Source: Oscillospiraceae bacterium (GTDB taxonomy: Bacteria > Bacillota_A > Clostridia > Oscillospirales > Ruminococcaceae). From it: a DNA stretch of 5,371 nucleotides. The position numbers were made by a program, and so were the translations under genes. Position 1 is the first letter of the stretch. Each line of letters opens with the position of its first letter. Where the stretch lies: positions 1-5,371 of the forward strand of contig JAFPQL010000152.1 in assembly GCA_017414145.1 (NCBI GenBank), in the 5' to 3' direction. Under the pieces are notes generated by a model, which saw only the letters and a list, made by a program, of their open reading frames with translations, was not told the origin of the DNA and did not search any database. Shown in pieces: positions 1-4,426 of the stretch.

Positions 1-230
1 AGCAGATCCACCGTGCAGACGCGGTAGAGCTTTTTGCGCTCGGCGAGGGACAGAGAGTCCATGACCTCTGCAATGTCTTTTCCGTGGTAATCCTCCAGCA
101 GGTTCTGCATGATCTTCGGGCTGGAATTGCCGCGGATGATTTTGATAATTTCACTTTCATAATCCGGGATGGATGCCACAGCCGCCTCGGTTTCAGCGGC
201 AACGGCAAGCCCCTGCTTTTCTTCTGCCAC
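1..230 (-). CDS. mgtE: MgtE-family magnesium transporter, N-terminal part (gene runs off the left edge)
   Basis: This is the first 76 codons of a protein that fits the cytoplasmic N-terminal domain of MgtE, the Mg2+-gated Mg2+ channel/transporter of the inner membrane. The visible signature is a stretch with HGKDIAEVMDSLSLAERKKLY, the 'xxADIAEvLeeLppeeRxxLfrll' helical repeat typical of MgtE_N. The CBS domains and membrane helices would lie beyond the window. I chose the GTG at 230 because GGAGG (plus-strand 240-244) lies 9 nt upstream. An in-frame TTG at 251 also opens the frame, directly after a stop, but it has no Shine-Dalgarno sequence. The first 20 or so residues are Ala/Glu-rich and probably disordered. 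Transcription starts from a consensus promoter far upstream, and a terminator stands between promoter and start codon, so expression is probably attenuated. The family call rests on about 75 residues, so it is likely rather than certain. Confidence 0.75.
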   Translation of the reverse strand, partial: MAEEKQGLAVAAETEAAVASIPDYESEIIKIIRGNSSPKIMQNLLEDYHGKDIAEVMDSLSLAERKKLYRVCTVDL

Positions 231-495
231 GCTTGGACGCCTCCGTTTCAATCATGAAATCTGTCGCGGATCTCATGACAGTCTGAACGGACAAAAGGGC
301 ATAAAAAACCCCTGTATGACTTTCATGCGGTCAGACAGGGACGCAGATCTGCTGCGCGGTGCGGTACGGACGGCGGCTTTCGCGTTCTGCCCGATGCACT
401 GCTCTTGCAGCGGATTGCGGTAAATGCCCGTTTGAGCCGCAACTGTCACCGTTTGCCACCGTACTCACCTCACTTTAGAATAGCCGTTTTGCAAC
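231..495 (-). promoter_or_regulatory. Long structured 5' leader of mgtE (candidate riboswitch or attenuator)
   Basis: About 265 nt lie between the predicted transcription start and the GTG start. By hand I see an outer helix of 8 bp (455-462 with 370-377). Inside it is a 5-bp helix (447-451 with 392-396) closing a three-way junction. The junction carries one hairpin with 6 bp (437-442 with 415-420) and a second with 6 bp and an AAGA loop (407-412 with 397-402). An intrinsic terminator follows at 303-340. The segment 443-451 (CGGUGACAG) can instead pair with the 5' arm of that terminator (328-338), nine pairs with a 2-nt bulge, which would be an antiterminator. Mg2+ transporter genes of Firmicutes are often controlled by the M-box (ykoK) riboswitch, but I cannot align this leader to the M-box motifs I remember. 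The ligand is therefore left open. The region also contains a possible 42-codon leader ORF. Confidence 0.6.
303..340 (-). terminator. Intrinsic terminator inside the mgtE leader
   Basis: On the minus strand CCCTGTCTGAC (340-330), a 9-nt loop, and GTCATACAGGG (320-310) form an 11-position stem with one C/U mismatch. One further G and six T residues (308-303) follow. It lies about 155-190 nt after the transcription start and about 70 nt before the mgtE start codon, so it would stop transcription before the gene. This position is the hallmark of an attenuator. Confidence 0.85.
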
Positions 496-501
496 AAGAT
501 T

Positions 502-530
502 ATTATATCAGATTTTTTATTGCGTGTCAA
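502..530 (-). promoter_or_regulatory. Sigma-A promoter of the mgtE leader
   Basis: On the minus strand a perfect TTGACA (-35, plus coordinates 525-530) and a perfect TATAAT (-10, 502-507) are separated by 17 bp with an A/T-rich spacer. Transcription should begin near 495. Such a strong promoter ahead of a long leader with a terminator fits a gene regulated by termination rather than by initiation. It lies back to back with the promoter of the 614 gene, with 31 bp between the two -35 boxes. Confidence 0.9.
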
Positions 531-4246: not shown

Positions 4247-4426
4247 TTAAGGCAACACCGCACAAAGTCCGCCTGACGGCTTGGCGGCGCATCTGCTTGC
4301 ATCTTTTCCGTCATCCTGCACAGAAACTCCTTGCCGGGCGTCAGCCCGGCGGCGTCATTTCTATACAATCTGACGAAAAATCTGACTGCACATCTGCACC
4401 ACCGGCTCTGTGCGGTGTTGCCTTAA
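4247..4426. mobile_element. MITE-like 180-bp element with perfect 18-bp terminal inverted repeats
   Basis: The left end TTAAGGCAACACCGCACA (4247-4264) is the exact reverse complement of the right end (4409-4426). Inside are concentric palindromes. TTTTCCGTCA (4304-4313) pairs with TGACGAAAAA (4371-4380) with one mismatch, and around the same centre lies the perfect GCCGGGC-gtca-GCCCGGC hairpin (4333-4350). A smaller CCGCC/GGCGG hairpin sits near the left end (4269-4287). No credible coding sequence is present. It lies in the intergenic gap between the divergent tgt and radC promoters, 35 bp from one -35 box and 15 bp from the other. The ends begin and finish with TTAA, so a TTAA or TA target duplication is possible but cannot be told from the repeat itself. 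A non-autonomous, transposase-mobilised element is the best reading. A dispersed structural repeat of the REP/BIME kind is the alternative. Confidence 0.7.
4333..4350. repeat. Perfect internal palindrome of the MITE-like element
   Basis: GCCGGGC, the tetranucleotide GTCA, and GCCCGGC form a 7-bp all-G/C hairpin. It has no T-run on either side, so it is not an intrinsic terminator. It sits at the centre of a larger inverted repeat (4304-4313 with 4371-4380). Confidence 0.85.

Follow-up and report, generated by a model that had tools for sequence, protein, structure and literature searches.

A conserved leader ORF upstream of clostridial mgtE as a candidate translation-controlled attenuator of a Mg2+ importer

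How an mgtE gene, encoding a Mg2+ transporter by family, is controlled in a gut Oscillospiraceae bacterium related to Ruminococcus is the question raised by the window analysed here, that is, the whole 5,371 nt of contig JAFPQL010000152.1. The gene lies on the minus strand and runs off the window. Its translation most likely starts at the GTG at 230, a putative start placed there because GGAGG lies 9 nt before it. The 76-residue MgtE piece of the window alone matched no protein family. The closest relative found is a metagenome-assembled contig (L001), whose tgt is 95% identical to that of the window; its leader is 89% identical over 544 bases, its MgtE N-terminus shows 95% identity over 76 residues and its full-length protein contains the Pfam MgtE, MgtE_N and CBS domains. 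The perfect promoter recognised in a first-pass annotation of this DNA is indeed present, and its position on the minus strand suggests a leader of about 265 nt.

502-530, minus strand: promoter, TTGACA and TATAAT separated by 17 nt, with TG ahead of the -10 (12 of 12 matches).
3-230, minus strand: N-terminal 76 codons of mgtE, with the putative GTG start at 230.

On the opposite strand, a near-perfect promoter (11 of 12 matches; plus 562-590) is directed toward a YjbR-domain gene (614-1378).

The leader (231-520) folds better than its shuffled versions (z=-2.31, 3 of 200 shuffles being as good), and the first-pass annotation had considered a divergent M-box or an undescribed metal-sensing RNA. 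With the M-box model RF00380 (gathering score 44), nothing in the window matched at a threshold as loose as E 10, and none of 30 genomes of the genus had a match; the same model matched 22 of 247 genomes of the family and, among 14 control genomes, two (B. subtilis and L. lactis). The suggested Infernal/Rfam check returned no class for the leader at E 10 apart from a plant-virus pseudoknot (14 bits, E 3.9), and the leaders of fourteen related loci had no Rfam match at E 1. Given the lack of matches in the window, the related loci and the genus genomes, an M-box or any other Rfam class was rejected for this leader.

The first-pass account had overlooked a short ORF within the leader, as well as an anti-Shine-Dalgarno (anti-SD) sequence at 291-286, downstream of it.

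331-459, minus strand: leader ORF of 42 codons, GTG (459-457) to TGA (333-331), with its own Shine-Dalgarno (SD) sequence (VANGDSCGSNGHLPQSAARAVHRAERESRRPYRTAQQICVPV).
465-471, minus strand: SD of the leader ORF, GAGGTGA, from the sequence and the leader alignment.

The leader ORF (MANGDSCGSNGRLP...) was found in all 21 mgtE loci from the 30 genomes of the genus, and the nine genomes without an mgtE match were also devoid of it; the search pattern behind this count was drawn up after leader ORFs had already been inspected. These 21 loci share a near-constant block, GAGGTGA-spacer-GTGGCAAACGGTGACAGTTGCGGNTCAAACGGGCGATTACC, which comprises the SD, the start and the first codons, and an ORF of the type M-A-N-G-D-S-C-G-S-N-G-R-L-P is present in all of them and in the window. 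A related form of the ORF precedes mgtE in 12 further loci of the family, with MgtE proteins 67-78% identical. The resulting 34 leaders (the window, 21 from the genus and 12 from the family; hereafter, the window clade) have ORFs of 27-46 codons. From 31 of the 34 leaders, leaving out L109, L110 and L117, a model of this block (R1, alignment A2) was built. It matched once per genome in 21 of the 30 genus genomes, just upstream of mgtE, with no second copies and no match in the nine genomes without mgtE (up to 150 candidates scored per genome); since the 21 positives are training rows, the informative part of this result is the absence of extra copies and of hits in those nine. Across the family, 15 of 247 genomes had matches (21 candidates scored per genome); 13 of these precede mgtE (12 belonging to the training set), which the remaining two, both weak (E 0.002 and 0.006), do not. 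A search for homologues of the leader peptide in a 5.8-billion protein set (alignment A3) gave seven candidates, none at E 1. One locus, L115, had upstream DNA too short for leader analysis. Two adjacent mgtE genes in tandem were seen in family genomes G212, G012, G112, G181, G200 and G249, and the second tandem copies at L133 and L134 have no such leader ORF.

More divergent mgtE genes of the family (24-30% identical) were also considered, 62 of the fetched upstream regions being long enough. An SD-preceded ORF of 10-70 codons starting with M-D was present in 29 of these 62 regions, in none of their 62 reverse complements and in none of 58 control stretches, taken from tgt loci at a single set position that in most, though not all, cases lies directly before tgt; 200 shuffle sets gave a mean of 0.8 and a maximum of 3. 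Examples of the encoded peptides are MDAGSSG..., MDPSGKPRSRR..., MDTGPERRH... and MDALPGRS.... A broad set (B) of 45 leaders was chosen among L119-L192 by the presence of an SD and an M-D, M-E or MSSD start, removing L171, L172, L183 and L186 by hand and setting the ORF of L120 by hand. As these leaders were selected on their start, residue 2 is not independent in the broad set, whereas the test on 62 regions is. In a class-wide draw, a candidate ORF was found in 17 of the 29 loci examined, by pattern only and with some weak cases.

To our knowledge, the M-box definition includes no leader ORF. Both an M-box and an mgtE match occurred in 14 genomes of the family, and in 11 of them the M-box precedes that mgtE in the same orientation, at a distance of 120-344 nt in 10 genomes and 1141 nt in one. 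The order M-box, M-D ORF, mgtE was observed in G085 (L180), G098 (L179), G111 (L135), G184 (L182) and G199 (L144); in G071 (L157), the M-D ORF follows the M-box and seems to overlap the mgtE start. An M-box and an M-D leader ORF before the same mgtE would possibly represent two Mg2+ controls in tandem.

Comparison supports the conservation of the short ORF at both the codon and the peptide level, as read from aligned sequences. Over codons 2-12 of the 17 unique window-plus-genus rows, differences at codon positions 1, 2 and 3 number 278, 112 and 417, and three relatives carry GAT-TGT-AGC in place of GAC-AGT-TGC, which keeps D and exchanges S and C. An ORF conserved in frame and apparently translatable is what would be expected of a translation-controlled attenuator. 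Within its first 15 codons, AGT accounts for 46 of 85 Ser codons in the window clade and 60 of 98 in the broad set, and CGA for 30 of 41 and 41 of 69 Arg codons, respectively; in the mgtE genes of the fetched loci, taken as background, the corresponding values are 7.1% and 2.8%. Both codons are decoded by wobble pairs. All 19 non-redundant leaders of the window clade carry AGT in the reading frame, and none carries it in another frame; in the broad set, 37 of 45 leaders have it in frame, against 1 and 2 in the other frames. The hexamer CGAAGT is found in frame, at codons 6-14, in 21 of the 45 broad leaders (16 of the 36 non-redundant ones) and never out of frame within the first 45 nt, while CGA alone is less frame-bound (39/3/9 and 27/2/11 leaders per frame). 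RNA pairing alone has no need of a reading frame, and a pure RNA reading is, thus, weakened by the in-frame location of CGAAGT and of nearly all AGT. A pure peptide reading is weakened in turn because these codons serve RNA pairing too, which also leaves codon and pairing effects entangled in these comparisons.

The pairings in question were assessed by a covariation test, in which the pairing of each leader's segment with its own partner was compared, through permutations, with its pairing with the partners of other leaders. The closing helix of the first-pass fold, here P1, fared best.

455-473, minus strand: 5' arm of P1, covering the leader SD, the spacer and the start codon, from covariation and pair types.
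354-375, minus strand: 3' arm of P1, codons 29-36 of the leader ORF, its end points read off the sequence.

In the window, the P1 duplex (473-455 with 375-354) has a computed energy of -26.6 kcal/mol. Across the 34 leaders, the segment from -14 to +7 pairs with the distal codons of its own leader at -19.97 kcal/mol and with those of others at -15.15 kcal/mol, a difference reached in 0 of 5000 permutations; two control segments gave p=0.92 and 0.99, and the 19 non-redundant leaders p=0.0002. Thus, P1 covaries in homologous leaders and spans the start of the leader ORF. The leader SD and start are near-invariant and the spacer covaries, with five positions paired in 31-33 of the 34 leaders by four or five pair types. 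P1 covariation extends to the 45 broad leaders (p=0.0002; 5'UTR control, p=0.09) and is retained in the 36 non-redundant ones. The remainder of the proposed three-way junction fared differently: its first hairpin covaries modestly (p=0.009), but neither the inner 5-bp helix (own partner -6.71, others' -7.04, p=0.92) nor the second hairpin (p=0.75) does, and the three-way-junction aptamer was rejected on these grounds. A conserved multi-helix fold of the kind expected of a new metal riboswitch class was, therefore, not found, P1 and, weakly, one hairpin being the elements that covary.

The fate of the transcript would be decided further downstream, at an intrinsic terminator that the first-pass annotation had rightly placed.

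310-340, minus strand: intrinsic terminator hairpin (-13.7 kcal/mol), which holds the leader stop codon and is followed by six U at 308-303.
423-448, minus strand: putative switch segment, spanning roughly codons 4-13 of the leader ORF, of which 442-426 would pair with the 5' arm of the terminator.

A consensus terminator scanner listed no terminator here because it allows loops of 3-8 nt and this loop has 9. Judging from a hairpin scan, 26 of the 34 leaders have a clean intrinsic terminator; L084, L101, L106, L108, L109, L110, L116 and L117, lacking a clean call, were omitted by judgement from the antiterminator and SD tests. The sequence itself allows the antiterminator first drawn, 443-451 with 328-338, as 9 bp interrupted by a bulge of 2 nt, but the strongest computed duplex in the window is 442-426 with 340-325 (-18.1). 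Pairing of codons 1-16 with the terminator 5' arm and loop covaries (p=0.0016, n=26; p=0.0062 in 11 non-redundant leaders), and four other pairings used as controls gave p=0.44-0.93. Comparison, thus, supports a pairing of early codons, about 7-12, with the 5' arm of the terminator. The switch between mutually exclusive terminator and antiterminator proposed earlier for this leader gains support from the homologues and from covariation across the clade, which involves the ORF codons themselves, although equilibrium folding of the window never favours the antiterminator. The stop codon, inside the hairpin in the window, is located at least 9 nt ahead of it in 21 of the 26 leaders.

A second level of control may operate at the SD of mgtE.

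277-303, minus strand: post-terminator segment TATGCCCTTTTGTCCGTTCAGACTGTC, a possible partner of the switch segment, containing the anti-SD TCCGTT (291-286).
252-278, minus strand: hairpin TCATGAGATC/GATTTCATGA, between the anti-SD and the SD, from the sequence and relatives.
240-247, minus strand: mgtE SD AACGGAGG, complementary to the anti-SD, from covariation.

The anti-SD and the mgtE SD covary both in the 26 window-clade leaders (p=0.0002) and in 31 leaders of the broad set (p=0.0002), so comparison supports a predicted pairing between the two. The predicted pairing of the mgtE SD amounts to 76-84% in all states and, in the broad set, to 67-75%. The switch segment (448-423) can pair with 303-277, at -14.9 to -29.0 kcal/mol across leaders; this pairing is conserved rather than covarying (p=0.15). 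The hairpin between the anti-SD and the SD was kept, by eye, in 14 of the 22 window-plus-genus leaders, with one slightly changed. Among the broad leaders, 31 of 45 entered the SD pairing tests, the other 14 having no identified mgtE SD, and their early codons covary with the stretch before the mgtE SD (p=0.0002, n=31; 5'UTR control, p=0.009). In several of them, the ORF letters AGGAAGTAG face TACTTCCTA, which could otherwise cover the SD TTAGGAGG. No more than 14 of the 45 had a recognisable terminator in a scan that covered leaders whose ORF ends well before the limit of the fetched DNA, and regulation in this set may, thus, act mostly at the SD.

On balance, we favour reading the leader before mgtE as a translation-controlled attenuator for a Mg2+ importer, in which the segment of codons 4-13 would be the switch. 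When this segment is free and P1 open, the terminator would be disrupted and the anti-SD perhaps drawn off the mgtE SD, so that mgtE would be made. With enough Mg2+, ribosomes would translate through the segment and mask it, P1 would re-form behind them, and the terminator and the SD hairpin would form, turning mgtE off. At low Mg2+, ribosomes would stall or dissociate while reading the first few codons, leaving P1 open, the segment free and mgtE on. Here, we infer both the translation of the leader ORF and the direction of its response to Mg2+.

Folding with a ribosome mask did not settle this direction in either the window clade or the broad set. Averaged over 26 leaders, the probability of the antiterminator rose from 0.12 with no ribosome to 0.34-0.35 when one was placed at codons 1-2, dropped to 0.00-0.02 for codons 5-22 and recovered to 0.10-0.17 for codons 24-31. 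In 30 of the 31 broad leaders with an SD, the ORF/anti-SD pairing went from 0.36 with no ribosome up to 0.52 for codon 1 and down to 0.13-0.17 for codons 8-15. On average, then, a ribosome held at the very start would open the switch and a travelling one would close it, which fits mgtE being on when low Mg2+ hampers early elongation. Several results count against the favoured reading: the mgtE SD is predicted to be mostly paired in every state, the switch and post-terminator segments do not covary, few broad leaders have a recognised terminator, one 5'UTR control itself reached p=0.009, and the peptide is devoid of the acidic pairs of known destabilizing motifs (0 of 34 leaders).

Folding of the window itself also departs from this average, and the reverse direction has to be weighed, in which translation to the end of the ORF would be the ON signal, with the ribosome opening P1 or sitting on the terminator, and a pause at AGT/CGA would mean OFF. 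The terminator of the window stays at 0.96-0.99 with a ribosome at codons 1-35 and is weakened (0.71) or removed only at codons 36-43 (abolished at 37-43, its stop codon being inside the hairpin), so complete translation would be its ON signal. A ribosome on the stop codon also lowers the mean terminator probability of the 26 leaders to 0.64, the antiterminator rises to 0.13-0.17 at codons 24-25, and a ribosome on the conserved rare codons would cover the switch segment. Against this, the distance between stop codon and hairpin in most leaders, together with a mean antiterminator probability higher at codons 1-2 than near the end of the ORF, leads us to regard the reverse direction as unlikely.

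A metal-binding riboswitch, whose P1-closed RNA would bind Mg2+ or another ion directly, the ORF being secondary or only an SD-like arm, would account for the strong P1 covariation, for the modest signal of the first hairpin, for the family of the downstream gene and for the joint formation of P1 (0.81) and terminator (0.83) in folding without a ribosome. It sits poorly with the failure of the inner helix and the second hairpin to covary, with an SD and start that hardly vary beside a covarying spacer, and with the absence of any Rfam match. Moreover, the conserved letters within P1 behave as codons in a fixed frame, and the aptamer put forward in the first-pass annotation is weakened because its conserved core looks like the coding sequence of the leader ORF; we consider a riboswitch improbable, if somewhat less so than the reverse direction. 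The enrichment of Ser AGT and Arg CGA codons could instead point to attenuation by an amino acid or charged tRNA (Ser, Arg or Cys) rather than Mg2+, and Salmonella mgtP is reported to respond to proline limitation through its proline codons (PMC3641672). Yet each of the 21 genus matches and 13 strong family matches is followed by mgtE, long runs of a single codon are absent and five family genomes have such an ORF between M-box and mgtE, which makes an amino acid signal very unlikely.

The leader can be compared with several known systems. The best reading by analogy is that it may reproduce the logic of enterobacterial mgtL from other parts, differing in sequence, apparently in terminator type, and in peptide motif. 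In the mgtL leader of E. coli and Salmonella mgtA, intrinsic ribosome destabilization is reported to be at work, with low Mg2+ hindering early elongation and giving the ON state (PMC11282234). Both leaders have a short ORF before a Mg2+ importer and competing RNA folds, and many broad-set leaders share with mgtL an early acidic residue followed by Arg (e.g. MDPSGKPRSRR). However, the transporter family, the phylum and the peptide are different, the mgtL terminator is described as Rho-dependent whereas that of the window looks intrinsic, and the leader studied here may have a second control, at the mgtE SD. Neither an acidic pair nor an acidic-Pro (EPDP-like) motif of the mgtL type was found in any of the 34 window-clade leaders; within the first 12 residues of the 45 broad-set leaders, they occur in 5 and 9, respectively.

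In Salmonella mgtP/mgtM of mgtCBR, leader-ORF codons likewise form part of alternative stem-loops, ahead of an operon for Mg2+ transport (PMC3641672), but proline codons and ATP sensing are involved; the window ORF has no proline run, and no sequence relation was seen. The M-box is described as controlling mgtE-type genes through terminator choice (PMC12810186), a likeness to the window leader, while RF00380 differs in that no match to it was found in the window or the 30 genus genomes. The Mycobacterium tuberculosis pe20 M-box/uORF2 (PMC12810186) is another leader linked to Mg2+ that combines a small conserved ORF with competition among SD, anti-SD and anti-anti-SD, in which, unlike here, the aptamer controls the ORF, termination is Rho-dependent and the peptide is reported as mycobacteria-specific; by analogy, it is a precedent for coupling an M-box to a small ORF. 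The mgtE motif SRC-65-1 is another candidate RNA before mgtE, which is reported only from Thioalkalivibrio, as a riboswitch candidate with a model including the SD and AUG of the gene itself and not a leader ORF (PMC11109978). Within the open-licence literature searched, no description of a leader ORF before clostridial mgtE was found.

We file the leader class as a new version of translation-controlled attenuation, whose translation and Mg2+ response are presumptive. Enterobacteria are known to sense Mg2+ by way of ribosomes on a leader ORF, and MgtE of Firmicutes is best known as M-box controlled. Tentatively, and with rather less assurance than for the attenuator itself, we propose an undescribed and widespread family of leader ORFs before mgtE in Clostridia, in which early elongation itself would sense Mg2+. 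Rare, wobble-decoded AGU and CGA codons, kept in frame at varying distances from the start, would at the same time be the stretch of RNA by which the terminator is opened and the mgtE SD released, providing a ribosome-based alternative to the M-box, sometimes in tandem with it. If true, a family-wide clostridial class of leader ORFs, occurring where the M-box was not found or beside it, would mean that the same logic has arisen again from other parts, and its many natural variants would allow testing how Mg2+ is read jointly by the choice of codons, the early peptide and the pairing of the RNA.

Two further elements were observed. Positions 4247-4426 of the window form a 180 bp MITE-like element with 21-nt terminal inverted repeats (95%), whose first 18 letters, TTAAGGCAACACCGCACA, had no exact copy among the 256 loci fetched. 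At L102, positions 2304-2398 of the minus strand match the CPEB3 ribozyme (E 0.0008), the score of 29.5 bits falling short of the gathering score, 35.
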